Of a stretch of 48,388 bases of DNA, positions 2-42,628 are shown piece by piece. The stretch's first letter is position 1. The number at the start of each line of letters is the position of its first letter. The stretch covers positions 1 to 48,388 of the forward strand of contig DYML01000003.1 in the NCBI GenBank assembly GCA_020721605.1, written 5' to 3'. Source of the stretch: Anaerolinea thermophila (lineage in GTDB: Bacteria > Chloroflexota > Anaerolineae > Anaerolineales > Villigracilaceae). The notes below the pieces were generated by a model that was not told where the DNA came from, did no database searches, and saw only the letters and a program-made list of their open reading frames with translations. The position numbers were made by a program, and so were the translations under genes.

Positions 2-3000
2 ATGAGTCAGTTTGTAGCGGCGGGGGGAATCCGCCCGGTGCAGGCTGAAAGCAAGAATGCAGAAAAAGCAATTGTGCAAAAAGCCTATTCAGATGGAAAG
101 TATAACGACACACACGAGGCTTGGCTTTACGCAGGAAAATGGAGCATAGCCAAGTCTTTGCGCAACTATCAAAGACAAACGCATATTTCAAACACAGTTG
201 GCGATCATGCAAGTTTTCTAATGAAGGGTACAAACTTCTCGCTAATTTACACGATTGCGTCTAAAAAAGGAAAACTGGATATTTTTATAGACGGAGCAAA
301 AGTAAACACACTTAACCAATCTGGCGCGAGAACAAAATATATGCAAAAATGGGACAGCCCAGCGCTTGTGAATGGCGAACATCTCATTAAATTTGCACAC
401 ACAGGCGCTGGAACTGTGGATGTGGACGGTCTTGTGGTAAAAACCAACAGTGAGCCAACTTTGCCAGCCCCTATCCTGCCCAGCCCAAGCGCAACCAGTG
501 TAGAAACGGCAACGCCCATTGTGATTCCGCCCAGCCCAACGCCAAGCATGGAACCCACTTTAGCGCCCACCCAGATTTTTATAACCAATTATTTTGTTTC
601 GCCAAATGGCGACAATGCCAACCCAGGCACGCAAGAGCAGCCCATGCAAAGCATTCAAGCGGCTGTCAATTTTGCACCTGCAGGAAGCACCATTACCGTG
701 CTGGCTGGGAATTACGCCGAAAGAGTATCTGTTTCCAAAACGCTTACGATACAGGCAGAGGGGCAGGCTGTAACCTACGGCTTTACCGTGACAGCCGATA
801 ATGTGACCCTGCGTGGATTTGAAGTATCAGAAACCACCGATGACCCAATTCAGGGCTGGGGAATTTACCTGCAAGGCAGCAACTGCACCCTTGAAAACAA
901 TTACATCCATGATGCCACACGCGGCGGACTTTTACTATTTACACAGCCTGGCGCCGAAACATTAACCGCCAACTGCGTTGTTCGCAACAACCGCTTCTAT
1001 CGCAATTCACAAGTTGGCATTGAAGTTAATGGGCGCAATCACCTTGTGGAAAATAACGAAATTTGGGGAACAATTCAACGCCACCCAAAGTGGATCAACC
1101 CGCCCGCCACTGTGGATGCGGATGGAATTCGTTTTTATGGCACAGGGCATATTTTTCGCAAAAACAATATTCACGACATTCTCTTTACAGTGCCAGAGAA
1201 TGTGAATCCATCCATTGACTGTTTTGAAACATTTGCAAACGCCCCGTATGAAGAGGCTGCAAACAGCATTCTTTTTGAGCAAAATCAATGCAACAATGCA
1301 CAGGTACAACCCAGCACAGGCAAAACTGGCAAAGGGTTTGTTCTTCGAGGAGCCAGCAACATTACAGTTCGCAACAATATTATTAAAGCCTACCTGGGAA
1401 TTTACGCCAACAACGCATCCAACATACTTACCATTCTCAACAACACTCTTGTTGGAGATTTAAACCTGCCGACCTCGTTTTATCCTGCTGGAATGGATTT
1501 TAAGGGGGTCGCATCCTCCATCGTTAAGAACAACATTTTCTACAACTTGCCCGGTCATATCATTTACAATCAAGATGAAACTTCCAAAACTGGCATGATG
1601 GGCGAAAAGAACTTAATGTTCCGTGCAGATGGCGCGTCCATGTGGACCACCAACACCTACTCGCACGCCAATGATCTGTGGGGAAGCAACCCGCTTTTTG
1701 TAAACGAAGCAGACTATCATTTGAGCGCTGGCTCTCCAGCAATAGATGCCGGCTTGGATGTTTCAATAGCCAATGACTATGACAACCAGTTACGCCCGCA
1801 AGGCTTGGGATATGACATTGGCGCACTGGAATCCAACAATACGAGCCTGCCGCCCGCTACCGTTGTCGTTACGCAAACGGTTGAGCCTGCTCCAAGCCAA
1901 ACACTAACCCCAACCAGCCTGCCGCCAAGTGCCACGCCAGTTCCAACAAGCACCAGCCTGCCGCCAACCGCTACGCCGCTTCCAACAAACACCAGTCTGC
2001 CGCCCGTATCTTCCTCTGAATATTTTGTGGCAGCAAGCGGAAATGATTCGAACCCTGGCACATTAGCACAGCCCTGGCGCACAATTCAAAAAGCCGCCAA
2101 TACAGCGCCCACCGGAGGGGTGGTAAATGTAATTGCAGGAACCTATTTGGAGCGGGTAACAATCTCGCGCTCATTAATCTTTCAGGCACAGGGGCAGGTA
2201 ATTACGCATGGATTTACGATCAAGTCTGACGGGGTTACAGTGCGCGGATTTGAAATTACAGACACAGCAGATGAAAGCACTGCCGGATGGGGCATTTATG
2301 TACAAGGCAGCAACTGTCTACTGGAAAATAATTATATTCACTACGCCACGCGCGGCGGCATTATTTTATATGCGCAGCCAGGCAGCGAAGCCCTAACCTC
2401 TAATTGTGTAGTACGCAATAACCGCCTTTATCACAATGCACTGGTTGGCATTGAGGTACGCGGGCGGAATCATTTGATTGAAAATAACGAAGTTTGGGCA
2501 ACCATTCAATTTCACCCGCGCTGGATCAACCAGCCAGCCTCTTGGGCAGATGCAGACGGAATGCACTTTCATGGCTCAGGGCATGTCTTCCGAGGAAACT
2601 ACATTCACGATATTCTGTTTACACAACCAGAAAACCCAACAACACACACCGATTGTTTCCAAACTTTTAATGCTCCGCCCCTGCAAGAAGCAGCCAACAA
2701 CATTTTATTTGAAAACAATAGATGTGATAACGCCCAAATACAAACCAGCGGCGAAGTTGGCAAAGGCTTTATGATGCAGGCAGCCACCAACATTACAATT
2801 CAAAACAATATCATCAAGGCGTATGCAGGCATTAATGCCAACAGCGGATGCAACGGCATAACAGTCTTAAATAATACCTTTGTCAGCAACCCCGCTTTAT
2901 CCACCTCCTCCTCACCGGTGGGAATAGATTTCACCAATGTCGCGGCTTCGATGGTGAAGAACAATATCTTTTACAACATGCCAGGGCATAACATCTACCT

Positions 3001-3277
3001 GCAAGATGCAATTTCAAAAAATGGAATGAACAGCGGTCAAAACTTAATGTATCGTGACGATGGCAAGGCGCTCTGGTCAACCAACACCTACTCACATCTA
3101 AACGATCTATGGGACGTAAACCCGCTTTTTGTAAGTGCAACCGATTATCATTTGCAGGCGAATTCACCGGCAATTAACGCGGGCGCAGTGGTGCCCGTTA
3201 CCCGTGACTTGAGCGGAAATCCACGCCCTTCAGGCACAGGGTATGACATTGGAGCATTTGAATTTCCCAACCCATAG
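2..3277 (+). CDS. Two-module parallel beta-helix surface protein, 5' partial
   Basis: Likely secreted polysaccharide-binding or -degrading protein; substrate unknown. The reading frame is open to the window edge and the first in-frame ATG gives no signal peptide, so the true start probably lies upstream. Residues about 1-145 look like a jelly-roll carbohydrate-binding domain (GTNFSLIYTIASKKGKLDIFIDG). Then come a Pro/Thr/Ser linker, a DUF1565-type beta-helix module (about 195-615, opening YFVSPNGDNANPGT), a second linker with 39-nt repeats, and a second beta-helix module (about 672-1091, opening YFVAASGNDSNPGT). Both modules carry NNEIW/NNEVW, a DADG motif and an IHDILFT motif, so they arose by internal duplication. 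NosD, pectate-lyase and alginate-epimerase families share this fold, but the catalytic activity cannot be assigned. The next plus-strand gene is a single-module paralogue. Confidence 0.85.
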   Translation: MSQFVAAGGIRPVQAESKNAEKAIVQKAYSDGKYNDTHEAWLYAGKWSIAKSLRNYQRQTHISNTVGDHASFLMKGTNFSLIYTIASKKGKLDIFIDGAKVNTLNQSGARTKYMQKWDSPALVNGEHLIKFAHTGAGTVDVDGLVVKTNSEPTLPAPILPSPSATSVETATPIVIPPSPTPSMEPTLAPTQIFITNYFVSPNGDNANPGTQEQPMQSIQAAVNFAPAGSTITVLAGNYAERVSVSKTLTIQAEGQAVTYGFTVTADNVTLRGFEVSETTDDPIQGWGIYLQGSNCTLENNYIHDATRGGLLLFTQPGAETLTANCVVRNNRFYRNSQVGIEVNGRNHLVENNEIWGTIQRHPKWINPPATVDADGIRFYGTGHIFRKNNIHDILFTVPENVNPSIDCFETFANAPYEEAANSILFEQNQCNNAQVQPSTGKTGKGFVLRGASNITVRNNIIKAYLGIYANNASNILTILNNTLVGDLNLPTSFYPAGMDFKGVASSIVKNNIFYNLPGHIIYNQDETSKTGMMGEKNLMFRADGASMWTTNTYSHANDLWGSNPLFVNEADYHLSAGSPAIDAGLDVSIANDYDNQLRPQGLGYDIGALESNNTSLPPATVVVTQTVEPAPSQTLTPTSLPPSATPVPTSTSLPPTATPLPTNTSLPPVSSSEYFVAASGNDSNPGTLAQPWRTIQKAANTAPTGGVVNVIAGTYLERVTISRSLIFQAQGQVITHGFTIKSDGVTVRGFEITDTADESTAGWGIYVQGSNCLLENNYIHYATRGGIILYAQPGSEALTSNCVVRNNRLYHNALVGIEVRGRNHLIENNEVWATIQFHPRWINQPASWADADGMHFHGSGHVFRGNYIHDILFTQPENPTTHTDCFQTFNAPPLQEAANNILFENNRCDNAQIQTSGEVGKGFMMQAATNITIQNNIIKAYAGINANSGCNGITVLNNTFVSNPALSTSSSPVGIDFTNVAASMVKNNIFYNMPGHNIYLQDAISKNGMNSGQNLMYRDDGKALWSTNTYSHLNDLWDVNPLFVSATDYHLQANSPAINAGAVVPVTRDLSGNPRPSGTGYDIGAFEFPNP
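1913..2005 (+). repeat. 39-nt in-frame tandem repeat in Pro/Thr linker
   Basis: About 2.4 copies of a 13-codon unit (1913-1951, 1952-1990, partial 1991-2005) encode TSLPP.ATP.PT. linker sequence between the two beta-helix modules. Such low-complexity linkers typically space domains of extracellular proteins and change in length by slippage. Confidence 0.85.
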
Positions 3278-3605: not shown

Positions 3606-5069
3606 ATGGTGATCAAAATGAATAAATTGTCTGCGGAACCACAGCCAAAATTCCCATCCCTGCTAATTTTTATGTGGGCTGGATTATTATTTTTGACCAG
3701 CCTCTCTTGCAATGTATTAAACATTCCAACGACAACAACAGTCACGCCGCCCCCATCTCCAACGCCGAGTCAAATTCCCCCAACACCCGACTGGGTAAGA
3801 GACTATTTTATCAATTCCCAAACAGGGTCAGATGCAAACCCAGGAACGCAGAGCCAGCCTTTGAAGACCATTCAAAAAGCAGCCAGCATGGCAACCGCAG
3901 GAGATACTGTTATCGTTCAGGCGGGAAACTACCCAGAGCGCGTCACCATTAAACAGTCAGGCAGAAGTGGAGAACCGATCACATTTCGCGCAGAAGGAAC
4001 AGTTCGCATGTATGGCTTTACTGTCTTAGCCAGCCAGATTGTCATTCAAGGATTTGACATCAGCAACACGCCAGATGATTCGCGGCATGGGTGGGGAATT
4101 TATGTAAATGGCAGTAACTGCATCATTGCAGACAATTACATCCACAATGCCACCTGGGGTGGCATTCTTTTGTTTACCAAAGCCAATCAATACACCGAGA
4201 TTGAAAACTGCATTGTGCGTAACAATCGCCTTGAGCGCAACGCCCAGGTAGGCATTGACATACGCGGAAGAAACCACCTGATCGAAAATAATGAAATCTG
4301 GATGACCATTCAACATCACCCGGCAATAAAGACTGCGCCAAGTTGGGCAGATGCAGACGGAATTCACTTTCATGGCTCAGGACATATTGTGCGGGGAAAT
4401 TACATTCACGATATTCTTTATACCCTTCCTGAAAACATTAATCCCCACATAGATTGCTTTCAAACATTTTTTAGCCCACCATATCAGGAAGCGGCAAGCC
4501 ACATTCTACTGGAAAGAAACAGGTGCGAGAATGCACAAAACCAAATTACAGGCGAGGTCGGCAAGGGTTTTATGATTGAAAACGCAAGCAGCCTGACAAT
4601 TCAAAACAACCTTGTCCACGCCTATACAGGAATCAATGCTTCCAACTCCAGCCGCCTGGAAATAATCAACAACACCTTCACAAGCAGTTTAACCCTGCCC
4701 GTAGAATTTTACCCAGTCGGCGTGGCGCTGGAAAACACCTCAAACGCCGTCATCCAAAACAATATTTTTTTCGACCTGCCAGGGCATATCCTTTACCTAA
4801 TTAATGCGCCCCATTTAAATACGGCAAAAAACCTAACCTACCGCAGTGATGGAAATTCGGTTTGGGTTACAAATACCTATACGCCGCTCAATGATCTTTG
4901 GGAAGTTAACCCATTATTGGATACTGCAACGGGCTATCGCCTTCAACCTCAGTCACCCGCAATTGACGCTGGCGTACTCACCGCAGTCAAAAACGATTTT
5001 GATGGCATTCTACGCCCGCAAGGGGCAGCCTGCGACATCGGCGCTTATGAATATCTGCCAAAGAATTAA
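3606..5069 (+). CDS. Single-module parallel beta-helix lipoprotein
   Basis: Predicted exported lipoprotein paralogous to the modules of the preceding protein. After a short basic N-terminus there is a hydrophobic segment ending in a lipobox-like LTSLSC (residues about 20-35). A Pro/Thr linker (PPPSPTPSQIPPTP) follows, then one DUF1565/beta-helix module starting YFINSQTGSDANPGT. The conserved DADGIHFHG, IHDILYT and DCFQTF motifs match the two modules upstream. Start is ATG 3606 or the in-frame ATG 3618; neither has a clear Shine-Dalgarno. The stop lies one base from the end of the convergent deacetylase gene, so no terminator separates them. A carbohydrate-active role fits the neighbouring EPS operon, but the enzymatic activity is unproven. 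Confidence 0.8.
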   Translation: MVIKMNKLSAEPQPKFPSLLIFMWAGLLFLTSLSCNVLNIPTTTTVTPPPSPTPSQIPPTPDWVRDYFINSQTGSDANPGTQSQPLKTIQKAASMATAGDTVIVQAGNYPERVTIKQSGRSGEPITFRAEGTVRMYGFTVLASQIVIQGFDISNTPDDSRHGWGIYVNGSNCIIADNYIHNATWGGILLFTKANQYTEIENCIVRNNRLERNAQVGIDIRGRNHLIENNEIWMTIQHHPAIKTAPSWADADGIHFHGSGHIVRGNYIHDILYTLPENINPHIDCFQTFFSPPYQEAASHILLERNRCENAQNQITGEVGKGFMIENASSLTIQNNLVHAYTGINASNSSRLEIINNTFTSSLTLPVEFYPVGVALENTSNAVIQNNIFFDLPGHILYLINAPHLNTAKNLTYRSDGNSVWVTNTYTPLNDLWEVNPLLDTATGYRLQPQSPAIDAGVLTAVKNDFDGILRPQGAACDIGAYEYLPKN

Positions 5070-5070
5070 G

Positions 5071-6267
5071 TCAGGCATCTAAAGACTCAAATTTCAGTTC
5101 TGCGCCGCACAAAGAAACTTTGCACAACTCCGAAATTTGAGCGCGCTGCCGCCACCACTGCGCCACATCACGAGGGAGCGCGTGCCAATAGTTGGTTTCG
5201 CTTTTCATTGCCGCCAAAAAATCGGCATAAATTTTAAATGCAGCAGGGTCTTTGAGATAATCGGGGTGCGAATTGACCAGCGCCAATCCATGATATTTTT
5301 TTAGAAATTGAATTTTATTTAACCACAATTGCGGCGTTTTCTCTGCCAAAATGGCGGTCAGGGTGTAATCTTGCGCCAGAGTATAGGGCAACTCGATAAA
5401 ATGTCCCAGAAAAAACGGCCAAACGGACATAGCGCCGCCAGGAATGGGCTCGTAGGGATCGGTGTCAAAAAAAGATAGGTCGTAATCTATGTTTAGAGTT
5501 TGCATCCATTCTGGCTGACGATGCGTGAGCGGTGCGCGAAACCCAACAGCCGACCATTGCTTAAGATATTGATTGGTACGCGCCGCGCGCCGCGAAAATT
5601 GAGCCTGCGAATCAAACAACCGTCCATCATGGTGCAAACCGTGAACGCCAATCTCAAAACCGCGCTGACGTAAATTTTCCATCAATGTAAAATTCAGCGA
5701 ATAACGCTCTGGGACAAAATTGAATGAGGAGCGAAACCCCATGCTTTGTTCCAGATCGGCAACTGCGGTAACAAAGCCCTGCCCTAACCCGGTTTCCACA
5801 TCGTGCGTCAAGACAAATGCAAATTGATTTTGCCCGCGCCAAAAATTCTTAATGACCATTGAATTGCGCCCGGTGATTAATAAAATCTCACGCAGCACGC
5901 CCCAAAGAAAAGCGCAGTAACGCTCGTCTACGGGGAAAAAATTTTGCTGCGCACTGCCCGCATCCGATTTATATATTTTTCGCAGTTCGCGGGCAATTGG
6001 GCGCGGAATAAGAGGCTTAAGGCGATAATAAAGTTTCTTTATCATCCCCAGTTGCCAATGGGATGCGCCAAAACGCCCCTCACCCAGCGTCAGCGCCAAA
6101 ATGAGATCAATATTTGGCGGGGCTTCGGGAATGTTAAGCGCAGGCAGCGCCCGAACAATTGCCTGCTGCCATTCTTCGGATGAGACCGCTTCCTGACAGA
6201 GCCAAAAGTTGGCGGGGGTATTTAAACTCCAAAGACTTGCAGCGGGTTGAGCCTCTATATTTTTCAT
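5071..6267 (-). CDS. Polysaccharide deacetylase (NodB-type) family protein
   Basis: 398 aa, the last gene of the EPS operon. The central region carries the NodB fold: FAFVLTHDVETG supplies the first Asp pair, and FEIGVHGLHHDGRLF has the His-x3-His-type metal-binding segment. The later GFRAPLTHR matches the RxP motif and IELPYTLAQDYT follows. Family members remove N- or O-acetyl groups from sugar polymers or lipid-linked sugars. No signal peptide is visible, which favours a cytoplasmic substrate such as a lipid-linked or nucleotide-linked intermediate. The N-terminal 140 residues are not recognised. It follows the radical SAM gene by 15 bp. Fold assignment is firm; the substrate is unknown. 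Confidence 0.8.
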   Translation of the reverse strand: MKNIEAQPAASLWSLNTPANFWLCQEAVSSEEWQQAIVRALPALNIPEAPPNIDLILALTLGEGRFGASHWQLGMIKKLYYRLKPLIPRPIARELRKIYKSDAGSAQQNFFPVDERYCAFLWGVLREILLITGRNSMVIKNFWRGQNQFAFVLTHDVETGLGQGFVTAVADLEQSMGFRSSFNFVPERYSLNFTLMENLRQRGFEIGVHGLHHDGRLFDSQAQFSRRAARTNQYLKQWSAVGFRAPLTHRQPEWMQTLNIDYDLSFFDTDPYEPIPGGAMSVWPFFLGHFIELPYTLAQDYTLTAILAEKTPQLWLNKIQFLKKYHGLALVNSHPDYLKDPAAFKIYADFLAAMKSETNYWHALPRDVAQWWRQRAQISELCKVSLCGAELKFESLDA

Positions 6268-6282
6268 GTTTTTTATGGGAAG

Positions 6283-7521
6283 TTAAGAAACCTGATAGGC
6301 AATATCCATATCTTCCAAGGCTTTTGCCACACGGCGAAGTCTTTGATTTATAACTTTATGTGGAACTTTATCACTCAACGTTGAAGCGGGTGTGCGGGGC
6401 GCATCGTAATAAATAAAAATATCCACCATCTTAAAATAAGCCTTGCGAATCAAGTCAATGGTTTTTTCGACATCTTCTTCTTTTTCTCCAGGAAATCCGA
6501 GGATGATGTCGGTTGTTAAATTCAAATTGGGAAATTCATCTTTTAGCCAGATGAGTAATTCAGCAACCTTTGAATGATTGCTATACCGATGCATGGATTT
6601 AAGGATTCGATCACTGCCAGATTGCACAGGAAAATGAATGCCGCTAATTTTTCCTGTTTGCAAAATAACGGCAAAGTCGTGTCGGTATTTCAGCAAAAAA
6701 GAAGGGGAAAGATTCCAGATTTGGATGCTGTAATCTTCCTGTGCTTCTAAAAATAAGTTGATAAGGTCGGGGAATGTGCTGCCAATATCGGCGCCGTAAG
6801 CGCCCACATTATCTGCAATGATTTCAAATTTTTTATATCCACTACTCAAACCTTTCATAAATTCAGCGTGGCAAATTTCCAGCGGCTTGCTGTGAAATCT
6901 GCCCACCGCCGAGCGAATACCGCAATAAGAGCAGTTTCTATCGCAGCCCCAGGATATTCTAATTGGGAATACTTCTGCCGCTGTGCTTTGACGGTTATAT
7001 AAATTTTTGACAAAACCTGGAAGTTTTTTAGTAATAATGTATTTAAAAGAAAGGTTTTTAACCGACTGAAACTTGCCAGACATGGCTTGAATAAAGTCAT
7101 AATCAAATATTTTTCTATAGGTCGGGTAGTAAGCATTTGCGTCCTCAAGGTCTGCAAACTTAAATCGCATAGTTGGAAAGTACGCATCAATCGTGGAAAG
7201 ATCGGAGGTGGGAATACTTTTGCCATCGTGCGCAAGTTCCAGTCGCTGCTTGTTAATTCCGGGCAGGCAGCCGCAAACAATCAAGTCGCCTTGAAATTTC
7301 TTCAGATCAGATACCCGGCAGATTGATTCGTTTTCTCTATTCAGTGAAACGGCACAGGTGACCAACAAAATTATGTCTGCGGTTTCAGGGCTGTTTACCA
7401 TTTCGTAACCATTAATTTCAAAATAATTTTGTAGTTTTTGGGCGTCAAGTTTTCTTCGGTTGCAAGAAAAATATGTTGCTTCAACAAATACTTTTCGAAT
7501 GTGGTTGGGTAATGTGTTCAT
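6283..7521 (-). CDS. MiaB-like radical SAM protein lacking TRAM domain
   Basis: 412 aa. The ORF track begins at an upstream GTG, but ATG 7521 is preferred. It has an AGGGATG-like ribosome site and lies just after the upstream methyltransferase stop, whereas the GTG would overlap that gene. The N-terminal UPF0004-like domain keeps three Cys at about 20, 56 and 85 (YFSCNRRK, VTCAV, CGCLPG), spaced as in methylthiotransferases that bind an auxiliary 4Fe-4S cluster. The radical SAM motif CDRNCSYC is at about 193-200, and GFPGEKEEDV lies further on. The protein ends at LEDMDIAYQVS, where MiaB/RimO/MtaB continue into a TRAM RNA/protein-binding domain; that domain is absent. Position among EPS tailoring genes suggests a substrate other than tRNA. 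Confidence 0.8.
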   Translation of the reverse strand: MNTLPNHIRKVFVEATYFSCNRRKLDAQKLQNYFEINGYEMVNSPETADIILLVTCAVSLNRENESICRVSDLKKFQGDLIVCGCLPGINKQRLELAHDGKSIPTSDLSTIDAYFPTMRFKFADLEDANAYYPTYRKIFDYDFIQAMSGKFQSVKNLSFKYIITKKLPGFVKNLYNRQSTAAEVFPIRISWGCDRNCSYCGIRSAVGRFHSKPLEICHAEFMKGLSSGYKKFEIIADNVGAYGADIGSTFPDLINLFLEAQEDYSIQIWNLSPSFLLKYRHDFAVILQTGKISGIHFPVQSGSDRILKSMHRYSNHSKVAELLIWLKDEFPNLNLTTDIILGFPGEKEEDVEKTIDLIRKAYFKMVDIFIYYDAPRTPASTLSDKVPHKVINQRLRRVAKALEDMDIAYQVS

Positions 7522-7541: not shown

Positions 7542-8489
7542 TTAATCCAAATTGGAATGGGCAGGTTGGGCATCCACCCGCATATCTATAATGCCATTTA
7601 CCATTGGGTATTCCCTTTGACAAGTTGCACACAAAAAACCCAACTTGGTTTGAATCAACCCCGAATTACAAATCGGACAGATCAACAATTCTTCAATTTT
7701 GGAAACCGCCCGAAGCGGGTCTTTCTTTTGAGTAACTCCTTTAAAGAAAACCCAGGGTGCGGCAAAATATTTACCAAGGAGCGGCGCAAAGCGAACTCCC
7801 GCAGGAACAAGGCTGGAAAAGCCAGCCAGGGAACTTGTTTTTCTTGCAATTCTATCGAAAATACCTGCGCCGCGATATTGGGAGATTTTGAATCCAGACT
7901 CAGTCAATAGCCGCAAGACATCCGTGGGGTGGTGATGAAAAAAATTAGGCTCGTCTGTCAGCGGTTTTAACGCAAATGGGTTGGGAGAAGTGGGATGCAG
8001 CAAAAATCGAATCATGCGGTAAATGTTGCGCTTATTGCTGTAATTCATAACCAAATTTCCATTGCCGCACAAAATCCTTTCGGCATTTTTGAGGCAGGCA
8101 CGAGAATCATTAAGATGATGAAATACCCGAATCATTAGCACGGTATCAAAGGCAGATGAGCAAAAAGGCAGTTGGTTTATATCGCCCAACACATAAAACG
8201 CTTTTCCGCGCGTAGTGCGCTGGGCGGCTTGTAAAAGTGACCGCGACCCGTCAAACATGACTTTGGTTTCAAAACGATCAAGATAGCAATCAGATAATCT
8301 GCCATAGCCGCACCCAAGATCAATCAGGCGGCTGCCGCGAGCAGGCAAAAGTTCATTGACAATGGCATGTTCCAGTTTATCCAATTTACGTTTGTCCACA
8401 CTTTTCCAATATTCGTCATAATCAACGCCTTCATAGATGTCGTAGGCATTTGGTATATGTCTGGCGGGGACTCCAATTTCATCTTCCAT
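7542..8489 (-). CDS. Class I SAM methyltransferase with C-terminal zinc-ribbon
   Basis: 315 aa. The methyltransferase domain occupies about 40-200: motif I LIDLGCGYGRLSD, an acidic residue after it (VMFDGS), LGDINQLPF, and FDTVLMIRVFHHLND. The C-terminus carries a Trm112-like zinc ribbon (LLICPICNSG... LCATCQREYP, two CxxC pairs) ending in an NGIIDM-type motif. In many related proteins this ribbon sits at the N-terminus. A GGAGG lies 9 nt before ATG 8489. The gene is in the tailoring part of the EPS operon, so O- or N-methylation of a sugar or lipid-linked intermediate is a reasonable inference. The acceptor is unknown. Confidence 0.8.
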   Translation of the reverse strand: MEDEIGVPARHIPNAYDIYEGVDYDEYWKSVDKRKLDKLEHAIVNELLPARGSRLIDLGCGYGRLSDCYLDRFETKVMFDGSRSLLQAAQRTTRGKAFYVLGDINQLPFCSSAFDTVLMIRVFHHLNDSRACLKNAERILCGNGNLVMNYSNKRNIYRMIRFLLHPTSPNPFALKPLTDEPNFFHHHPTDVLRLLTESGFKISQYRGAGIFDRIARKTSSLAGFSSLVPAGVRFAPLLGKYFAAPWVFFKGVTQKKDPLRAVSKIEELLICPICNSGLIQTKLGFLCATCQREYPMVNGIIDMRVDAQPAHSNLD

Positions 8490-8565: not shown

Positions 8566-9354
8566 TTAGAATACAACTTTCCTGACCTTTTGTTGAGGTG
8601 GCTCGTCTGTCTTTTTAAAGCAGAGGATGGGTTCTGACGCCCAACGCGGAGAGAGAATACGATGCCGTAAGGTCATCAGTGAGTGGAAAATTATTGCCTT
8701 TGCTTTTGATTTTTTATATAAATTCTGATAGCGTTCACTTCCACCTGGCTGGGCAATATAGACGGTATCCAAAACAAAACCAAACGAAGCAATGAACTCC
8801 AGCAAGGTGATGTAGGTAAAATATCTTACATGGGCATAAAATTCATAGCGTGAAGATTCGTCCAATGGGTCGTGATACGATCTGCCGCGCAAAACAGGAT
8901 TTAAAATATATTCAGGCGCGGCGTAGTTAGGCGTTGTGATGTAGAGAAATCCACCCTGAGATAAGACGCGCTTAATTTCTTTAATAAAATGATCCACGTT
9001 TAGCAAATGCTCAATCGTAACCAACGAGACAACCGCATCAAAAGAGCCATCAGGAAATGGAAAATTAGAAACGCTGTCATCCAGATCAAAAGATACAATC
9101 GGCAGGTTTAGTTTTTTGAGGTCGGGGAAACATGCCGGCGAAATCTCGTTACAAATTAATTTTGCCGAATAGCCGTCCCGAATTCTTTGTGCGGCATACC
9201 CAATGCCAGCGGAACTATCAAGAATATTTTTATGCTGGCGCTGTTCAAAAATGGCTGGAAATACACGGTGTCTTTCCTTGAATTCAGGATAGACCATTAA
9301 AGTTTCGTTTTCGTTTAATCGGGTTTCCTCTTGTTTCATCGAAAATTCACGCAT
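8566..9354 (-). CDS. Class I SAM-dependent methyltransferase
   Basis: 262 aa. SAM-binding motif ILDSSAGIGYAAQRI is followed by ICNEISP, FPFPDGSFDAVVSLVTIEHL and IKRVLSQGGFLYITTPN, the order of a Methyltransf_11-type domain. The start ATG 9354 has an AAGGAG site 9 nt upstream; an inner ATG (9339) is less well placed. The C-terminal 100 residues have no recognised domain. Together with the next gene downstream it makes a pair of methyltransferases in the operon. Likely a sugar or glycolipid methylase by context; the acceptor is unknown. Confidence 0.8.
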   Translation of the reverse strand: MREFSMKQEETRLNENETLMVYPEFKERHRVFPAIFEQRQHKNILDSSAGIGYAAQRIRDGYSAKLICNEISPACFPDLKKLNLPIVSFDLDDSVSNFPFPDGSFDAVVSLVTIEHLLNVDHFIKEIKRVLSQGGFLYITTPNYAAPEYILNPVLRGRSYHDPLDESSRYEFYAHVRYFTYITLLEFIASFGFVLDTVYIAQPGGSERYQNLYKKSKAKAIIFHSLMTLRHRILSPRWASEPILCFKKTDEPPQQKVRKVVF

Positions 9355-9480: not shown

Positions 9481-10698
9481 TCAATGCCGCGTTAATCGGT
9501 CTAACATTTTATGGAGCAAGCCAAAAGTAAAGGCAGCCCCTGGGCGCCAGTCGTCTGCCGAATAAATAGCCCACATTTTTTCACCGCGCAAAGATCGCAG
9601 CCAGCCCCCAAAAGATAATTGTCCTTTGCGCCAATATTCAATGGCGGCGCGCAAATCTCGCTGCCAGTCCACCCAGATGATGCCTTCGCGGTATACAAGT
9701 TGGGAAGAAATGGGCAGCCCCAAAGTATCACAGTAGGCAATGTAGGGCAGGTCTACACCGCATTTCACGCTCAGACCATCCCATAAACCAAAGCGCGTAT
9801 TTACTTCAATTAATTTATAGCCGCCATCACGCGGATCATCTTTTAATTCCACGCCCACCAAGCCCTGATATTTTGCCGATACCAATAAACGTAATGCAAT
9901 CTCCACCAGCGCAGGGTCGTAAAAACTGCGCACATAACTTGCAGAACCAAATCCAACGGGGATGATTCGGTGCTTTCTTCCGGCAAACATTGCCAGTGGC
10001 TTGGAGTTGCGGTCAAAATAAAAGGAAATATACACAAGCCGGCTGTCTTCCCCTGGAATCACCTCTTGAACGACCAGCCGATGATCAAGCGCAGAAATGC
10101 GCTTGTAAATTTCAATCAGTTCGGTTGGCGTACTGCACAAAATTACTTTTGCGCGTCCATTCAACAATCCACTGCGCAATTCTTGCGCCACTTGCGGCGC
10201 GTGCCAATAAGTGCTTTCGGTGGGTTTTAAAATTACCGGGTAGTTTAACTGCGCAGCGATTGCTTCAATGTTTTCCGGGTTTTCAATAAAAACTGTTTTG
10301 GGCGCGGGAATATGAAAAGCGCTGGCAATTTCTTGTAACCCGCTTTTGGTTGTCAGGCGTTCCATCGTCTGCTCGTCGGGCATAACGTATTCGTAATATT
10401 TTTGAAGGGTTGCCCTGTTCCTGGAGCAAATTAGCACATGCATATCACTAAGCGGGTAGAGAACTGGCTTGCATTTTAGGCTGCGGGCAAAGTTGACCAA
10501 AAACTGCACATACGCGGCTTCACCTTCTCCTTCTGGATTCGGAGATTGAACAAATTGACAATATTTTGAGTATCGCCCAGGTACAGCGGGGTCGTGATCT
10601 ACACCGTAAACGGGGATATTTTTTTTTGCCAAAGAGCGGGCAATATCCAGCCCCATGTGTTCATCAAGCGGGGTAATCACAGCGGGTGTTTGATTCAT
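9481..10698 (-). CDS. ATP-grasp ligase of the EPS operon
   Basis: 405 aa. The start is taken at ATG 10698, which has AGGAGG 8 nt upstream; the longer TTG start adds two residues. The N-terminal domain resembles the preATP-grasp fold (MGLDIARSLAKKNIPVYGVD). The ATP-grasp part follows, with NYPVILKPTEST, LVVQEVIPGEDSRLV, GLVGVELKDD and LIEVNTRFG as nucleotide and Mg binding segments. This group joins a carboxylate to an amine or similar nucleophile through an acyl phosphate. Placed next to a FemAB-like transferase, it could activate an amino acid or uronate carboxyl for decoration of the polymer; this is inference. A second, distinct ATP-grasp protein lies at 47051. Confidence 0.75.
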   Translation of the reverse strand: MNQTPAVITPLDEHMGLDIARSLAKKNIPVYGVDHDPAVPGRYSKYCQFVQSPNPEGEGEAAYVQFLVNFARSLKCKPVLYPLSDMHVLICSRNRATLQKYYEYVMPDEQTMERLTTKSGLQEIASAFHIPAPKTVFIENPENIEAIAAQLNYPVILKPTESTYWHAPQVAQELRSGLLNGRAKVILCSTPTELIEIYKRISALDHRLVVQEVIPGEDSRLVYISFYFDRNSKPLAMFAGRKHRIIPVGFGSASYVRSFYDPALVEIALRLLVSAKYQGLVGVELKDDPRDGGYKLIEVNTRFGLWDGLSVKCGVDLPYIAYCDTLGLPISSQLVYREGIIWVDWQRDLRAAIEYWRKGQLSFGGWLRSLRGEKMWAIYSADDWRPGAAFTFGLLHKMLDRLTRH

Positions 10699-10722
10699 AG
10701 CCAACGCCTCCTAAACCGAGTT

Positions 10723-11769
10723 TTAAGCATTCACTTTTAATGCAGGTTCATTTGTTTTTGAAAAAAGATATTTTCTCGTTTGTTCGTATCCAATTTCGGC
10801 AACTTTGAACAGGGCTTTATTGTGAACACAAATATTGCGCCCGTAGTTCACCAGTTGCCCGCCAAACTTTGCTTTAAAATCACGCACGCCATATTCCTCG
10901 CCTGGCTTGCCAGCGCCGCCAAAGTCGTAGGTGTGATAGCCATTCTGTACGCCCCATTCCAAAATTTTCCACATTAAAATTTCATTGGGAGCATGGGCGC
11001 TGTATTCACGATCCATGCCGCCGTACCAGCCATACATACTGGTTTTGTAGAGTAGTTCCACAGAGGTGGCAGCAACCTGACTACCAACATAGGCAAGGCT
11101 AAAACGAATCATTCCTTTGGGATACAACACATCAAATGCAGATTCAAACAACGAAATATCGGCAAGGGGAACTTGAGCCGCCTGATAGGTTTGGCGTAAC
11201 AAGTTGTAGCAGGCGGGTATTTGTGAACGATCCTGAATTTGTTTAATGACCACATCTCCGCGATTGAGACCATGCCGAATATTTTTACGGGTTCGATGCC
11301 CAATATTTTGGAATACGGCTTCTGGCGCAGCATTTAAGTTAATTAAATAATTAAGATGGTCGGCGTAAACAAAACCATGACGGGAAAGGATGGGCTGCAC
11401 TTCAAAAAGGTTGGAGATATTACGAAGTTCTGTAAAAAGAGAAGTGTGGTCATTGCTTTGCAAATAAGTGTGCAACAAACAATCCAACGCCTCAAACCCC
11501 TGCGGGCTGAAATTCCACAGCACACTGCCGTAGGCAATTGAGCGGGTTGTAATATGACGAAGAATCCCATTCTTTAATGTGATTTGTACGGGAAGTAAAA
11601 TGGCAAGCGGAAGACCGCGCTGATCTAGGGCGGCAATCAGGGTTGGCTTACATTTGTCTGAATTTTCAAAAACATGAAACATCTCGCGGGTATGAAAAAT
11701 ATTCCCAGACGGGTGCTGATCAACATAATTCTGCCAAATATCTTCAGGTAAAGAATAAACAATTTGCAT
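10723..11769 (-). CDS. FemAB/GNAT-like acyl or aminoacyl transferase
   Basis: 348 aa. The protein shows a two-lobed GNAT architecture typical of the FemAB-like family found in EPS clusters. Features are HPSGNIFHTREMF near the N-terminus, a central RTRKNIRHGLNRGDVVIKQI, and the later SVELLYKTSMYGWYGGMDREY and LMWKILEWGVQNGYHTYDFGGAG. FemABX enzymes add amino acids from aminoacyl-tRNA to peptidoglycan precursors. EPS-linked relatives are usually annotated as GNAT acyltransferases with unknown acceptors. It lies between a glycosyltransferase and an ATP-grasp ligase. Exact donor and acceptor cannot be read from sequence. Confidence 0.7.
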   Translation of the reverse strand: MQIVYSLPEDIWQNYVDQHPSGNIFHTREMFHVFENSDKCKPTLIAALDQRGLPLAILLPVQITLKNGILRHITTRSIAYGSVLWNFSPQGFEALDCLLHTYLQSNDHTSLFTELRNISNLFEVQPILSRHGFVYADHLNYLINLNAAPEAVFQNIGHRTRKNIRHGLNRGDVVIKQIQDRSQIPACYNLLRQTYQAAQVPLADISLFESAFDVLYPKGMIRFSLAYVGSQVAATSVELLYKTSMYGWYGGMDREYSAHAPNEILMWKILEWGVQNGYHTYDFGGAGKPGEEYGVRDFKAKFGGQLVNYGRNICVHNKALFKVAEIGYEQTRKYLFSKTNEPALKVNA

Positions 11770-11787: not shown

Positions 11788-13038
11788 TTAGGCTGTCTCT
11801 TTTTCCAAAGAGTTGGAATTTGCATCTGGCGAGACAAGCAATTGATAGGCTTTGATTAAGTTTTCTGCCTGAAAATGCCAGGCAAGGGTTGTCTCAATTC
11901 TAGATTTGCCCGCCAGCCCCATCATTTTGCAACCCATTGGATCATCCATCAACTCGGCAATTTTTTTGGCAAAATCCAATTCATTGTGCGGTTTTTTGGC
12001 GTATACCGCCGCATCTTGCGCGGTGAAACGATGTTCGGGCAAATCAAATGCCACAATGGGCTTGGCTAACGCCATATATTCCATCAACTTCGCCGCCGTA
12101 GAGCGGTCGTTATATGGGTCGGAAGGCTCTGGCGCAACACAAATATCCATCGAGTTAAGATAACCGGCTATTTCTTCCTGTTTATTAACCCAGCCCGTAA
12201 AATGAATATAGGCAGATATATTCAAGTTTTTGGAAAGGGACTTCAACATGGGCATGGCGCTTCCATCCCCCACCATCAGACATAAAAAATCTGTCCTGCC
12301 CAAATCGTAGACGAGGTGATACAGCGCCTTCATCAAATATCCAAGCCCATCTTGCGTACCCATCACACCCACATAACCAAGAATTGTTTTTCCCTGCGCT
12401 TGAAAGGCTGGTTCAACATCCAAGCAATGCAGTTCGCGCATATCGGGTCCGTTTCGCACAATGGAGATTCGCTCTTCTGCAACATGCCCGCGCTGAATGG
12501 CAATTTGCTTGTACGATTGATTGGTCGAAATCACACAATCTGCAAGATGCAGGGAGAGACCCTCCAACCACAGCAAAATACGATGAATGATTGGGCTGCC
12601 TTTTCCGCCAAAACGCGCAAAATATAGTTCGGGCGCCAGGTCATGATGATCAAGCACATAGATTTTGCCAAATAGTTTATAGAAGCCAGCAATGAAAAAA
12701 AACGTGTCGGGAGGATGAGCCGCATGGACAATATCAAACCCTTTGGTAACCCAGACTCGCAAGGAAACAAAAAACAGAGCCAGCATGGTGTACACATATT
12801 CCCATAAATAACCCCACACACCACTGGCGGAAGGCGGCGGCGGAAAACGATAAACATCCACCCCGTCCACCATTTCGCGGCGGGATTGCCCGCGTGATGA
12901 AGGGCTGATCACAGAAACTTGATAGCCGGCAAGTAATAAAGCCGCCGCTTCATGCCGCACCCGATCATCACGCGGGAAAGAGCAGTTTTCGAGCAGCATC
13001 AAAATGCGGTTTGCTTTAGATTTTTTCATTTTTTTCAC
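11788..13038 (-). CDS. Glycosyltransferase family 4
   Basis: 416 aa. GT-B glycosyltransferase: the N-lobe opens ILMLLENCSFPRDDRVRHEA, similar to WbuB-type enzymes, and the C-lobe has ILGYVGVMGTQDGLGYL, APEPSDPYNDRSTAAKLMEYMALAKPIVAFD (the E-x7-E nucleotide-sugar segment) and SRIETTLAWHF. It transfers a sugar to a lipid-linked acceptor at the cytoplasmic membrane face. The likely start is GTG 13038, with GGAG 5 nt upstream; ATG 13029 is 14 nt from that site. It overlaps the upstream sulfotransferase by 23 bp, implying translational coupling. Confidence 0.85.
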   Translation of the reverse strand: MKKMKKSKANRILMLLENCSFPRDDRVRHEAAALLLAGYQVSVISPSSRGQSRREMVDGVDVYRFPPPPSASGVWGYLWEYVYTMLALFFVSLRVWVTKGFDIVHAAHPPDTFFFIAGFYKLFGKIYVLDHHDLAPELYFARFGGKGSPIIHRILLWLEGLSLHLADCVISTNQSYKQIAIQRGHVAEERISIVRNGPDMRELHCLDVEPAFQAQGKTILGYVGVMGTQDGLGYLMKALYHLVYDLGRTDFLCLMVGDGSAMPMLKSLSKNLNISAYIHFTGWVNKQEEIAGYLNSMDICVAPEPSDPYNDRSTAAKLMEYMALAKPIVAFDLPEHRFTAQDAAVYAKKPHNELDFAKKIAELMDDPMGCKMMGLAGKSRIETTLAWHFQAENLIKAYQLLVSPDANSNSLEKETA

Positions 13039-13903
13039 CCATACTCCAAGTGGTTGGCTCTGCGGGCAAATAGCCTTTAAGCCTCATGCCAGGCGACATT
13101 AAATCCAGCAGGCGCATACCCAATGGATTTTTTGTGTAATCGGGCGCTTTGTAATTTTGGCTTGCAATGGCAGCCAGATTAAAACCAAAACCATTTACTG
13201 CCAAGCCTAAAAAATCTGCCAGAGGGTTCAAAATTTCCAACGGGGCACGGCAAAGTTCTTCATAACTAAATTCAAAAAACTGTCCTTTCAATTGCAAAGC
13301 GAATTCATCTTTTTTGTTTTCTATCTCAAGAATGCAGGCGTTCCAATAATTAGCGCAATGAGTTTTGTATTCCAGTTCTGAATAGGTATATTTTGAATAT
13401 TTTCCAAAATTTTTTTTGAAATATGATTCAACGACCGATGGTCCATACCGAAACAAATGAATAATTTTTGCCTGTGGAAAAATCTCCAAAATTTTTGGAA
13501 TAAAAAATGAGATCATTGCGCTTTTGGTAAAAAAGATTTTTGAAGAACCAGAAAGCCAATGAAAACCGGAAAAAATATCGCGGATGGTTTCTTCATGCCC
13601 TCTGTTCCAACTGGCAATGGAAATCTCACTAAAATAAGCCGGGTCTATTTCAATGGGCGGCAGTTCAATTTTTGCCTCCTCAAACGGCTCCAACGTGGGG
13701 TGCCAGAGTTCATTTGCCTCACCAGGAAAGCCAGAAATGGAGGGGTGAGATCGAAGAATATCCACCAGCAAATTGGTGCCGCAGCGCCCAGTGCCGATGA
13801 TGATAATGGGCTGGCGGGTGCGAAAGCCAAAAGTTTTGGCAGCCTGACCCGCAAACAGACAGCCTGCATCAAAAATTCTTTCACGAAAAATGGTAGTTTG
13901 CAT
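13016..13903 (-). CDS. Sulfotransferase family protein
   Basis: 295 aa. PIIIIGTGRCGTNLLVDILRSHP is the PAPS-binding 5'-phosphosulfate loop. AKIIHLFRYGPSVVESYFKK corresponds to the 3'-phosphate-binding strand and helix, and the later FEFSYEELCRAPLEILNPLADFLGL fits the C-terminal part. Start is ATG 13903, with AAAGGA 7 nt upstream; the longer ORF would run into the preceding gene. The family transfers sulfate from PAPS to carbohydrate hydroxyls, so a sulfated EPS is possible. Bacterial members of this family may also use other acceptors. The product overlaps the next glycosyltransferase start by 23 bp. Confidence 0.8.
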   Translation of the reverse strand: MQTTIFRERIFDAGCLFAGQAAKTFGFRTRQPIIIIGTGRCGTNLLVDILRSHPSISGFPGEANELWHPTLEPFEEAKIELPPIEIDPAYFSEISIASWNRGHEETIRDIFSGFHWLSGSSKIFFTKSAMISFFIPKILEIFPQAKIIHLFRYGPSVVESYFKKNFGKYSKYTYSELEYKTHCANYWNACILEIENKKDEFALQLKGQFFEFSYEELCRAPLEILNPLADFLGLAVNGFGFNLAAIASQNYKAPDYTKNPLGMRLLDLMSPGMRLKGYLPAEPTTWSMGEKNEKI

Positions 13904-13914
13904 ATATGTATCCT

Positions 13915-15180
13915 TTAAGATGCCCGACAAACTTTATAAAATAATGCCAGTAATTGCAGCGAACTCTTTTGGAGGCTGAACTGGGCTTCCACCAAATCTC
14001 TGGCGTTTTGCCCCAAACGCGCGCGCTGGCTGGGGTCTGCGGCGAGCGCCAAAATGGCATTTGCCAACGCGGAGGGGTCGTTGGGTTGCACCAAAAAACC
14101 CGTCTGTTGATGCTGCACCAATTCAGGAATGCCAGAAACAAAGGTCGAAACCAAAGGCAAGCCAGCCGCCGCAGCCTCCATCAGCACCACAGGAATTCCG
14201 TCCATGTCGCCTTCTGGGGTGACGCGGGCAGCCAGTACAAAAAGATCGTATTGATTACATGTCATTCGTATTTCTGGTTGGGGTCTGGCGCCCAACAACT
14301 TGACCCGCGATTGCAGCCCAAGCGCTGCAATTTGCGCCCGCAAGATGGGTTCTTCGGGTCCGCCGCCAATAATGGAACAGGTGTATTGAATGCCGCTTTG
14401 GCTCAATAATTGGCAGGCGGCAATTAAGTCGCTGTGACCTTTTTTGGCAACCAAACTGCCAACCGATAGAATCTTGAGCAATGGAGTTTGATGGGGTGAC
14501 TCCGCGCCCAGGCGGGGTTTGGGTGCAAATTGAGCCAAATCTACTCCGCAGTGAATCACCGAAATTTTTTCGGGCGGGCAGCCTCTTGCGGCGGCAACCA
14601 ACAAAGAGTTAAACTGGCTGATTGCAACAATGTGATCTGCCTCGCGGCTTATGAGCGGCAACAGGTCATTTTTGTACGAAAACAGATCGTAGGCATGAAC
14701 GGTGACGGTAAAAGGTTTCTTTAAAAGGCGGGCGCAAACCCAGGCTGCGGCGCCAGGCAGCCATGCGAAATGCGCGTGGAGCAAATCTACTTTTGTTTCT
14801 TTTAAGTGGTAGGCGGCAGAAACTGCTTTGAGAAAAACAACAAAACGCTTGAAGAACGAAACAAGGGGTTGCTTTGGGCTGGGCTGGTTTATCAACGTAA
14901 ACCACAAACTAAAGTAAAGCAAAGGCGCATGAAAAATAAAATAAAACTGCGCTTTCCAAAGTTGCCAGCGCCAAAGAGCGGGGGCATTCCAGGTGAATTG
15001 CAGCAGCGTTTGTGAGAGGGGCTGCACAAAGTCATCCTGCGGGGGTAATAAAGAAATAATTTCCACTTGAATATTTTGCGCTTGAAGCGCACCAATTTCG
15101 TCTGCCACAAATGTTTCGGTCAGGCGTGGAAAATAAAGGAGGATGTAGGCAACACGAAGGGGGGGCATCTTATGTGACAT
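13915..15180 (-). CDS. Glycosyltransferase family 4
   Basis: 421 aa. The N-lobe opens with RVAYILLYFPRLTETFVADEI, as in colanic-acid WcaL/AmsK-like enzymes. VDLLHAHFAW and the C-lobe segments ISVIHCGVDLAQF, ILSVGSLVAKKGHSDLI and PEGDMDGIPVVLMEAAAAGLP (E-x7-E region) complete a GT-B fold. It probably adds one sugar of the repeating unit. Start ATG 15180 has AAGGA 9 nt upstream and lies 6 bp after the deacetylase stop. The downstream sulfotransferase starts 11 bp after this stop. Confidence 0.88.
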   Translation of the reverse strand: MSHKMPPLRVAYILLYFPRLTETFVADEIGALQAQNIQVEIISLLPPQDDFVQPLSQTLLQFTWNAPALWRWQLWKAQFYFIFHAPLLYFSLWFTLINQPSPKQPLVSFFKRFVVFLKAVSAAYHLKETKVDLLHAHFAWLPGAAAWVCARLLKKPFTVTVHAYDLFSYKNDLLPLISREADHIVAISQFNSLLVAAARGCPPEKISVIHCGVDLAQFAPKPRLGAESPHQTPLLKILSVGSLVAKKGHSDLIAACQLLSQSGIQYTCSIIGGGPEEPILRAQIAALGLQSRVKLLGARPQPEIRMTCNQYDLFVLAARVTPEGDMDGIPVVLMEAAAAGLPLVSTFVSGIPELVQHQQTGFLVQPNDPSALANAILALAADPSQRARLGQNARDLVEAQFSLQKSSLQLLALFYKVCRAS

Positions 15181-15186
15181 AAATCG

Positions 15187-16158
15187 TCATCCTTCTTCTT
15201 GACTTTTCTTTAAGGTTTGTGCGGCAAGAGCCGCCATGGTAATGGATTTCAACCTGCCTTTTTGGGCTTGGTCGGCAAAGTGTGAAAACAAATAACGTAA
15301 TTTATCAAAATCTTTTTCGGTTTGAAACTCATGTGGATGCGCCCATAAGTGAATTACTTTTTTCTCTTCTGCGGCTTTTTGAATACTCTTCGCCGCCCGA
15401 TAAAAACGCAAGTAAGGCAAATTAACTGCATCTAAAACAGATTCGACCTTGCGGTTGGTGCGAAAAAGCCAGAGTGAAGAAGGCACATTCACCAAATGTT
15501 CAGGCTGCGCAGAAATATCAAAAACCTGGGGCGGCAAAAATGCCAGCCGAAGATTGATCTGATTCAAAACTTTACCCAGCAGCGGCACTGCCAACAGCGG
15601 GTGACGCACTTCTTTGCCGCGATAGCAGATAAAGCCCGCCTCTTGAAAAAGATCAAGATGGGCAATGCGCCCCTGCGGAAAAATAACGGTCTGCGGAGAA
15701 ACGCCAATTTTTTGTGCCAAGCGCACCCATTCCTGTATTTCATACCGTGCCTGATCCCTGCTGAGGGTGTTGAAAAAGCGATGCGTATGCCCATGACATG
15801 CAATCTCGTGACCGGCGTTTCTTTCGAGCAGCATTTGAACCATATCTGCCCCGTACCAAAGCGGGTTGGCAGCGCCCCAAACTTGATCAAAGCCTTGATC
15901 TTTTCCCTTAAATTCAAGCAAGGGGCATTCATCGCATTTTTCACAGGTTTCATAAAAGAGATGTCCCGTGACCGCCCAAGTGGCAACCACACCAAATTCA
16001 TTCATCAAATCCAACAGGCGGCAAATCGTTTGCCGTTCCTGCGCCGCGCTGCGGGTTGTATGAGTAAACCGAGTGTGATCCCAGTCAATTGTTCCCCAGG
16101 CAAATTCGGTGTCGAGGGAAAAAACAAAATAACCAACATCAGCGGATACTTCTTTCAT
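15187..16158 (-). CDS. Polysaccharide deacetylase (NodB-type)
   Basis: 323 aa. FVFSLDTEFAWGTIDWDHT provides the catalytic base region and CHGHTHRFF the metal-binding His-x3-His-type motif. WAVTGHLFY and VIFPQGRIAHLDLF follow, as in NodB-fold enzymes. A Cys-rich insert (CEKCDECPLL) is unusual and might bind metal. It differs clearly from the first deacetylase in this operon, so the two are not recent duplicates. There is no signal peptide; the enzyme probably acts on a cytoplasmic or lipid-linked sugar. Confidence 0.82.
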   Translation of the reverse strand: MKEVSADVGYFVFSLDTEFAWGTIDWDHTRFTHTTRSAAQERQTICRLLDLMNEFGVVATWAVTGHLFYETCEKCDECPLLEFKGKDQGFDQVWGAANPLWYGADMVQMLLERNAGHEIACHGHTHRFFNTLSRDQARYEIQEWVRLAQKIGVSPQTVIFPQGRIAHLDLFQEAGFICYRGKEVRHPLLAVPLLGKVLNQINLRLAFLPPQVFDISAQPEHLVNVPSSLWLFRTNRKVESVLDAVNLPYLRFYRAAKSIQKAAEEKKVIHLWAHPHEFQTEKDFDKLRYLFSHFADQAQKGRLKSITMAALAAQTLKKSQEEG

Positions 16159-16172
16159 GGCAGTTTATATTC

Positions 16173-17360
16173 CTAAAGGGGTGAAATGGTTTGGCAGCCT
16201 TTTTGGAGCGCAGCGCTTAATTTTTGAGCAGAGGCTGCCCATGTCCAAAGTGTTGCAGAGGCAGAAGCCTGCTGCCCCATTTTGGATAACTGCGCATGGG
16301 ATTTCCAAACTTGCTGCAAAGCATCTAAAAGCCCGTCTTCGTTGGATGTCTCTGCCCAAAAAACGTATTCGGCGCTGCCAAGAACATCGGAGTGGCAAAC
16401 GACACGGGTGGCTAAAATGGGCAATCCAGCCGCCAGATATTCAAATAATTTAATTGGGCTGCACACTTGGTATTTTTCTTCGTCGGGAAAGGGCAAAACG
16501 CCCACATGGCTGAATGCTAAAAATTGAGGAATTTCTTCATACGCAACCAAAGGAAGAACCTGAATGCAGCCCTGCGTGTGCGCGGCGAAGGTTTGCAGTT
16601 CTTCTTTTTGATTGCCGTCACCGATCAACGTGAGTACAAATGACATACCTTTGGTGTTGGCTAAGACCACCGCACGGCTCAATGCCATGAGGTTTCTTTC
16701 ATAATGAAGCGAACCGTGATAAATCAAGTGGATTGAATCTGAGGGCAGCGACCAGCGTCGCTCAGACTGCGCCTTCAAAAAATGCTCCGGTTCTGCGCCA
16801 GAGGGCCAATGCCCCCATAATTTATGTTTGGGAATTTGAACCGCAGCCGCCATGCGCTGCGTAATTGCCAGCCGCCCATCCGCAAAGTGATTCCCCAGCC
16901 AACTGACCCAAAAATAGAAATACCTGCGGATGCGATCTTTCCACCCTTCGTGCAGGAGCGAGTCCATTGGCAAAGAGCGGGTATCCATCACCAAAATGGG
17001 ATTTCGGCGGCGGGCAAAAAAACGCAGCAGCCGCAAAGGGAGCAACCAAAGAGCCGAGACTTCGTGAAAAAGAATGATGTCAATGGCGGTAAAGTGTGTA
17101 AAGATATAACCCAAGACTCGAAAGTGAAAGACCGCCTGACGCAAAAAATAAATATTGGGCTGAGGAATACACAAGACCTCTACGCCATGAATTTGTTGAA
17201 TGCCCGAAGCGCCTGCCGCGACCAAAGTTACCTGCCATCCAAGCCTGCGCAATTCGGCGGTGGTTTTTAGCCAGGTAGCCGAGTCTAAACTTTTGGCAAG
17301 TGATCCGCTGTAGACCCAAAGCAAACGGAGTGTATTGGGTGAAGTCTGGGGGTAGGTCAT
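16173..17360 (-). CDS. Glycosyltransferase (GT-B, group 1)
   Basis: 395 aa. The start is set at ATG 17360 (AAAGGTG 7 nt upstream, 19 bp after the preceding stop) instead of the longer ORF, whose first 35 residues look untranslated. N-lobe: LRLLWVYSGSLAKSLDSATW. C-lobe: IHLIYHGSLHYERNLMALSRAV, and SHVGVLPFPDEEKYQVCSPIKLFEYLAAGLPILAT with the E-x7-type nucleotide-sugar segment. Likely a membrane-associated sugar transferase for the repeat unit; donor and linkage are unknown. Confidence 0.82.
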   Translation of the reverse strand: MTYPQTSPNTLRLLWVYSGSLAKSLDSATWLKTTAELRRLGWQVTLVAAGASGIQQIHGVEVLCIPQPNIYFLRQAVFHFRVLGYIFTHFTAIDIILFHEVSALWLLPLRLLRFFARRRNPILVMDTRSLPMDSLLHEGWKDRIRRYFYFWVSWLGNHFADGRLAITQRMAAAVQIPKHKLWGHWPSGAEPEHFLKAQSERRWSLPSDSIHLIYHGSLHYERNLMALSRAVVLANTKGMSFVLTLIGDGNQKEELQTFAAHTQGCIQVLPLVAYEEIPQFLAFSHVGVLPFPDEEKYQVCSPIKLFEYLAAGLPILATRVVCHSDVLGSAEYVFWAETSNEDGLLDALQQVWKSHAQLSKMGQQASASATLWTWAASAQKLSAALQKGCQTISPL

Positions 17361-17379
17361 TCTGCAACACCTTTCAGCG

Positions 17380-19849: not shown

Positions 19850-19856
19850 GGTGTTT

Positions 19857-21326: not shown

Positions 21327-21380
21327 GAGAATTTGCCTTCTGTTATGCCGCCATAAGCCCAATCAAAGAAAATTAAATAA

Positions 21381-22609: not shown

Positions 22610-22619
22610 GGTCTGCCTC

Positions 22620-24905: not shown

Positions 24906-24947
24906 TGGAATGCCTCCTAAATAACAATAAACGAATAAAGCGCATAT

Positions 24948-27178: not shown

Positions 27179-27219
27179 CAACCATGATCTTTACTATGAC
27201 AGCACAAAGGTATAACGGT

Positions 27220-38629: not shown

Positions 38630-38645
38630 GTTGCCTCCAAAAGAT

Positions 38646-40127: not shown

Positions 40128-40140
40128 AGTCAAGTTTTTA

Positions 40141-40294: not shown

Positions 40295-40296
40295 TT

Positions 40297-41361: not shown

Positions 41362-41372
41362 GGTCTGATTTC

Positions 41373-42543: not shown

Positions 42544-42573
42544 GTTTATTTTCCTTGTTGAAAATCGGTAATT

Positions 42574-42612: not shown

Positions 42613-42628
42613 AGTTACCAAGCACCAT

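Follow-up and report, generated by a model that had tools for sequence, protein, structure and literature searches.

Radical SAM methylthiotransferases (MTTases) fall into four clades and act on two documented classes of substrates, A37 of tRNA and the ribosomal protein S12 (PMC10702137). The classical enzymes MiaB, MtaB and e-MtaB share an UPF0004 domain with three cysteines, a radical SAM domain with a CxxxCxxC motif and an overall fold, and RimO, built on the same catalytic core, provides with its non-RNA target a precedent for a substrate other than tRNA. In classical MTTases, methylation of the sulfide is carried out by the enzyme itself and requires no partner (PMC10702137). The RNA-binding TRAM domain at their C-terminal end was regarded, in a reading of the present locus from the sequence alone, as the element that MiaB, RimO and MtaB need for substrate recognition. 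This is too simple, as chimeras place the recognition of i6A/t6A in the MTTase or the radical-SAM domain, and all three domains of MiaB contact the tRNA (PMC10702137). Hence, the loss of TRAM alone is no proof of a substrate switch. Among open-licence papers, no description of TRAM-less MTTases was found. The same reading stated that no thiomethylated exopolysaccharide (EPS) made in this way is described. A methylthio sugar, 5-deoxy-5-methylthio-xylofuranose, is present on a bacterial surface polysaccharide, the mycobacterial lipoarabinomannan (PMC3229680), but it is not known as the product of a radical SAM MTTase.

The window, i.e., the whole stretch of 48,388 nts that was analyzed, lies in contig C53 of a 3.2-Mb draft genome that is 86% complete (G000). 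On its minus strand, the ORF 6283-7521 encodes a TRAM-less, MTTase-like radical SAM protein of 412 aa starting at the ATG at 7521. The open frame extends 5′ of this codon to a GTG at 7632, and the orthologues start at the ATG. Pfam identifies the UPF0004 domain (PF00919, residues 16-95, E 1.6e-12) and the Radical_SAM domain (PF04055, residues 192-358, E 3e-16). Both cysteine sets are intact, as the sequence-only reading had reported: C20 (7462-7464), C56 (7354-7356) and C85 (7267-7269) are by homology the ligands of the auxiliary cluster (7267-7464, minus strand), and the radical-SAM motif C193xxxC197xxC200 lies at 6922-6945 on the same strand. No Pfam match was obtained beyond residue 358, the TRAM domain being absent from this protein and from its four orthologues. 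The stop is at 6283 and the next gene starts at 6267, the 15-nt gap (6268-6282) being too small for a TRAM domain, so that a hidden one is impossible at the window. At the other four loci, the next ATG follows after 38, 6 and 8 nts or overlaps by 4 nts. In all five proteins 71-73 residues separate the GFPGE motif from the C-terminus, versus 116-190 in classical MTTases with complete 3′ ends from viral contigs. The tight downstream genes and the common endpoint of the orthologues therefore rule out a TRAM domain hidden by a frameshift or a mis-assembly, and the early end of the protein is confirmed.

A search for homologues of the same length and a comparison of their neighbourhoods, as had been proposed, yielded four full-length orthologues among 150 relatives, with 56% (G021), 51% (G079), 47% (G016) and 48% (G036) identity and the same endpoint as the window protein. 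The gene is thus present in five of 151 draft genomes, which are incomplete. In pairs with unsaturated synonymous sites, dN/dS ranges from 0.125 to 0.20, indicating purifying selection. The short MTTase is a real, maintained gene. Its named relatives belong to metagenome-assembled genomes of Chloroflexi/Anaerolineales. A scan of genome contigs with a five-row alignment returned the same four relatives only, and class- and phylum-level samples at E 1e-60 returned the window sequence only. Such scans would miss distant members like the one from Geobacter described below, and rarity of TRAM-less MTTases can therefore not be claimed. IMG/VR scans with the queries P0001 and A1 revealed no relatives and phage matches were just ~25-28% identical, hence a phage or viral origin was rejected. 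Annotated plasmid matches were classical MiaB, RimO or MtaB; the exception is an unannotated ORF on a Geobacter plasmid.

The five proteins score below every NCBIfam cut-off and far below those of all equivalogs. TIGR00089 gives 211-232 bits for a cut-off of 251, a shortfall partly explained by the missing TRAM domain, and the best equivalog, TIGR01578 (e-MtaB), gives 191-216 bits for a cut-off of 314.7. A tree built from these proteins, MiaB, RimO and MtaB, without archaeal e-MtaB, places the five on a long stem as a separate clade (100/100) outside all three subfamilies; RimO, which carries a TRAM domain, shows no specific kinship to them. An alignment with 17 classical MTTases demonstrates that the six cysteines are common to all, and the GFPGE and QxGS-type motifs are also retained. 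In contrast, four positions near-invariant in the classical enzymes are changed in all five proteins: N15 to R23, N47 to V54, A55 to R62 and R170 to V206 (E. coli MiaB numbering for A55). In terms of motifs, GCxxN becomes CxRR, NTC becomes VTC and the RG following the cluster motif becomes VG. With the change of NTC to VTC, residues adjoining the cysteines of the auxiliary cluster are unlike those of all classical MTTases compared. We rate the TRAM-less protein as probably working like an MTTase while belonging to none of MiaB, RimO, MtaB and e-MtaB, from which it also differs by an added inter-domain segment and its location in an EPS operon.

Structure prediction was another of the proposed checks. 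The second AlphaFold2 model of the window protein (pLDDT 79, pTM 0.67) has MtaB, MiaB and RimO as its best PDB matches (TM 0.64-0.70), and the catalytic core is accordingly predicted to adopt the MTTase fold. The family-specific segment between the two domains, residues 127-179 (6985-7143, minus strand), was delimited by alignment, classical enzymes being ~35-40 residues shorter in this region. The models show it as partly helical, but at low confidence, and for this reason it is not claimed as a substitute for TRAM.

The distant relative is a 372-aa ORF on plasmid pSD of Geobacter anodireducens (CP014964.1, 71954-73072; L185:13955-15073). It shares with the five proteins the six cysteines, the absence of TRAM, the VTC motif, an ADDxGxxGxD motif and a PxxLxKY segment, but differs by its 26% identity, its lack of the 127-179 segment and its plasmid setting. 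It clusters with the five Anaerolineales proteins (98/96); because the stem is very short and the branch long, the kinship is likely rather than certain. The genes downstream overlap or abut, and encode a guanylate-kinase-like protein followed by two probable glycosyltransferases, namely a probable nucleotide-sugar transferase with a Pfam E of 0.0026, below cut-off, and a GT-B-like glycosyltransferase recognized by motif reading only, with no database match. Were these assignments correct, TRAM-less MTTases would adjoin sugar genes in two separate lineages.

The EPS setting of the window gene is borne out by gene content, the MTTase being the second-last gene of a Wzx/Wzy-type operon on the minus strand. 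The operon encodes an initiating sugar transferase (Bac_transf) and a Wzz/GNVR-AAA chain-length protein (24156-26465), followed by a DegT aminotransferase, a hexapeptide acyltransferase and a Gfo/Idh dehydrogenase of an amino-sugar pathway (21464-24124). A Wzy_C polymerase/ligase (19857-21362) and a Polysacc_synt flippase (18293-19906) occupy 18293-21362, and glycosyltransferases, a sulfotransferase and a polysaccharide deacetylase occupy 11788-18315. The part nearest to the MTTase comprises a FemAB/GNAT-type aminoacyltransferase-like protein (10723-11769), an ATP-grasp ligase-like protein (9481-10704) and two class I SAM methyltransferases, MT262 (8566-9354) and MT315 (7542-8489), the latter with a C-terminal zinc-ribbon-like tail (CPIC...CATC). 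The last gene (5071-6267) encodes a further polysaccharide-deacetylase-like protein, with a weak Pfam match.

At four of the five loci (G000, G021, G016 and G036), the MTTase lies in this syntenic operon with MT315 directly upstream. The cassette FemAB - MT262 - MT315 - [MTTase] - ATP-grasp - deacetylase is kept in G021, G016 and G036, and in the window the ATP-grasp gene is found at another place. In G016 and G036 a second copy of MT315 flanks the MTTase on its other side; this duplication spans ~8417-11518 of L038 and L039, and the upstream copy of G016, called as just 240 aa, looks shortened or broken. Between G021 and G036, the core operon proteins are 67-74% identical versus 52% for the MTTase and MT315, implying that these two behave as one variable module, in keeping with a tailoring unit that strains exchange with one another. 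The same cassette exists in G017 (L075, G017:C3:139000-158900) without the MTTase or a remnant of it. In a tree of four shared operon proteins, G017 is sister to G016/G036 (100/100), which makes a loss in G017, or a gain in its relatives, direct. Since G017 retains the polymer genes, the MTTase is not needed for polymer synthesis; the G017 operon is a natural null for a comparison of polymers.

The fifth case is unlinked. The MTTase gene of G079 is not part of the EPS locus but sits beside uvrA and the remnant of a HicAB toxin-antitoxin system, and a UbiE-like methyltransferase starts 8 nts after its stop. The C-terminus of this methyltransferase (L037:8120-9412) matches a fragment of the HicA toxin and adjoins the HicB antitoxin gene, which looks like a fusion by recombination. 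MT262 and MT315 of G079 are found at a sugar locus on a different contig, which also encodes a glycosyltransferase and an ATP-grasp protein. MT262 occurs in six of the 151 genomes, including all five with the TRAM-less MTTase. The naive probability of this co-occurrence, 1e-8, takes no account of shared ancestry or of linkage and is not to be read literally. Only G079 counts as independent evidence.

The TRAM-less protein is an extra enzyme, since both G036 and G079 also hold MiaB, RimO and MtaB. G000 possesses MiaB and RimO, while RimO is the only classical MTTase seen in G021; MtaB was found neither in the 86% complete assembly of G000 nor in G021. With the whole classical set retained in G036 and G079, the protein is no general replacement of MtaB, and a general replacement of a tRNA enzyme is unlikely. 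None of the five orthologues lies beside tRNA-modification genes, a setting which the sequence-only reading had named as speaking against its proposal.

Its location in the EPS cluster and the same short enzyme in four relatives suggest that the protein probably decorates a part of the polymer, and there is good support for linking it to polymer tailoring. With slightly better than an even chance, we propose that it is an active enzyme of MTTase fold that converts C-H into C-SCH3 on a sugar or aminoacyl precursor together with MT315. We infer the two half-reactions, the class of substrate and the cooperation with MT315. The standard two-step reaction is suggested by the conservation of both sets of cluster cysteines: like MiaB and RimO, the enzyme would carry two [4Fe-4S] clusters, a first SAM would donate its methyl group to a sulfide of the auxiliary cluster, a second SAM would yield the 5′-deoxyadenosyl radical, and a C-H of the substrate would become C-SCH3. 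As target we envisage a sugar, or an amino acid or aminoacyl group, of the precursor of the polymer repeating unit in the cytoplasm, on which the adjacent MT315 may act together with the MTTase. The amino-sugar genes of the operon offer sugar targets, and the FemAB and ATP-grasp genes make an aminoacyl target plausible; on the other side, the genes give no indication of a sugar or amino acid that contains sulfur. The earlier idea of a substrate switch towards polymer tailoring stands on the four of five loci in one syntenic EPS operon and on the co-variation with MT315, and falls as far as the loss of TRAM was to prove it. The deep separate clade, the changes at invariant residues, the extra copy and the operon are stronger signs of such a switch. 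Against an EPS role count the position of the G079 gene outside the EPS locus and the polymer genes of G017 without an MTTase, and a gene can be carried along passively in an operon.

As a methyltransferase is its constant partner, the enzyme might also insert sulfur that is S-methylated in a second step. It would then tailor the EPS by sulfur insertion, or by radical chemistry of another kind, and not be a true methylthiotransferase. In variants of this scheme, MT315 would S-methylate a thiol or thioether that the enzyme makes on a sugar or an amino acid, or the reaction would be a C-methylation or a dehydrogenation. The pairing with a SAM methyltransferase (two flank the MTTase in G016 and G036, and a different one is coupled to it in G079), the change of NTC to VTC and weak NCBIfam matches of the window protein to B12-type radical SAM methyltransferases are consistent with it. 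However, the three cysteines of the MTTase domain are invariant, Pfam and NCBIfam revealed neither a cobalamin-binding nor a SPASM domain, and classical MTTases methylate the sulfide without help, which makes such chemistry rather unlikely. Methylthiolation of a protein or peptide in the manner of RimO, during EPS assembly or on a product displayed with the polymer, could draw on the ability of the fold, known from RimO, to modify the side chain of a protein residue and on the aminoacyl groups suggested by FemAB and ATP-grasp. It seems distinctly improbable, as neither a candidate precursor peptide nor a consistently adjoining small ORF came to notice at the examined loci, and the tree shows no RimO-specific kinship.

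A tRNA methylthiotransferase that works independently of TRAM and is merely sited in an EPS operon would agree with the closest curated models, both tRNA MTTases, with the failure to find MtaB in two of the genomes and with a recognition of i6A/t6A that does not depend on TRAM. The retention of the three classical enzymes in G036 and G079, the sub-cut-off scores, own clade and changed residues, and the restriction to five of 151 genomes with a tie to one EPS operon render it quite improbable. Finally, the missing domain might betray a decaying or mis-assembled MiaB or MtaB gene. This is scarcely credible and is refuted by the endpoint shared among orthologues from independent assemblies and by the dN/dS values.

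Returning to methylthiolation of a polymer precursor, the five proteins and the Geobacter ORF might, more tentatively and with somewhat less than an even chance, represent the first lineage of radical SAM MTTases acting on glycans or on building blocks linked to them, TRAM-less, spread over two phyla and placing methylthio groups on surface polysaccharides. If true, MTTase chemistry would be widened to glycans or small molecules and an enzyme that methylthiolates C-H positions in carbohydrates or amino acids would become available. It would also give a lead for methylthio groups without a known enzyme, e.g., that of methylthio-F430, for which no product was obtained with the archaeal MTTase that had been assayed (PMC10702137).

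Other genes of the window deserve mention. Divergent from the EPS operon, a single-module NRPS (27184-30378, plus strand) combines AMP-binding, PP-binding and thioesterase domains. It was rejected as a supplier of aminoacyl groups, the NRPS matches in the other genomes with the operon being 29-39% identical and none lying at the operon. A second, carbamoyl-phosphate-synthase-like ATP-grasp protein is encoded outside the operon (47051-48190, plus strand). Heme-pathway genes at 37346-46774 (minus strand) encode HemL, a protoporphyrinogen oxidase and a radical SAM/SPASM protein of the TIGR04053 family, strongly similar to the heme b synthase AhbD. Right-handed beta-helix proteins, pectate-lyase-like or NosD-like (2-3277 and 3606-5069, plus strand), face the end of the EPS operon, and their homologues flank the operon in G021, G016, G036 and G017.
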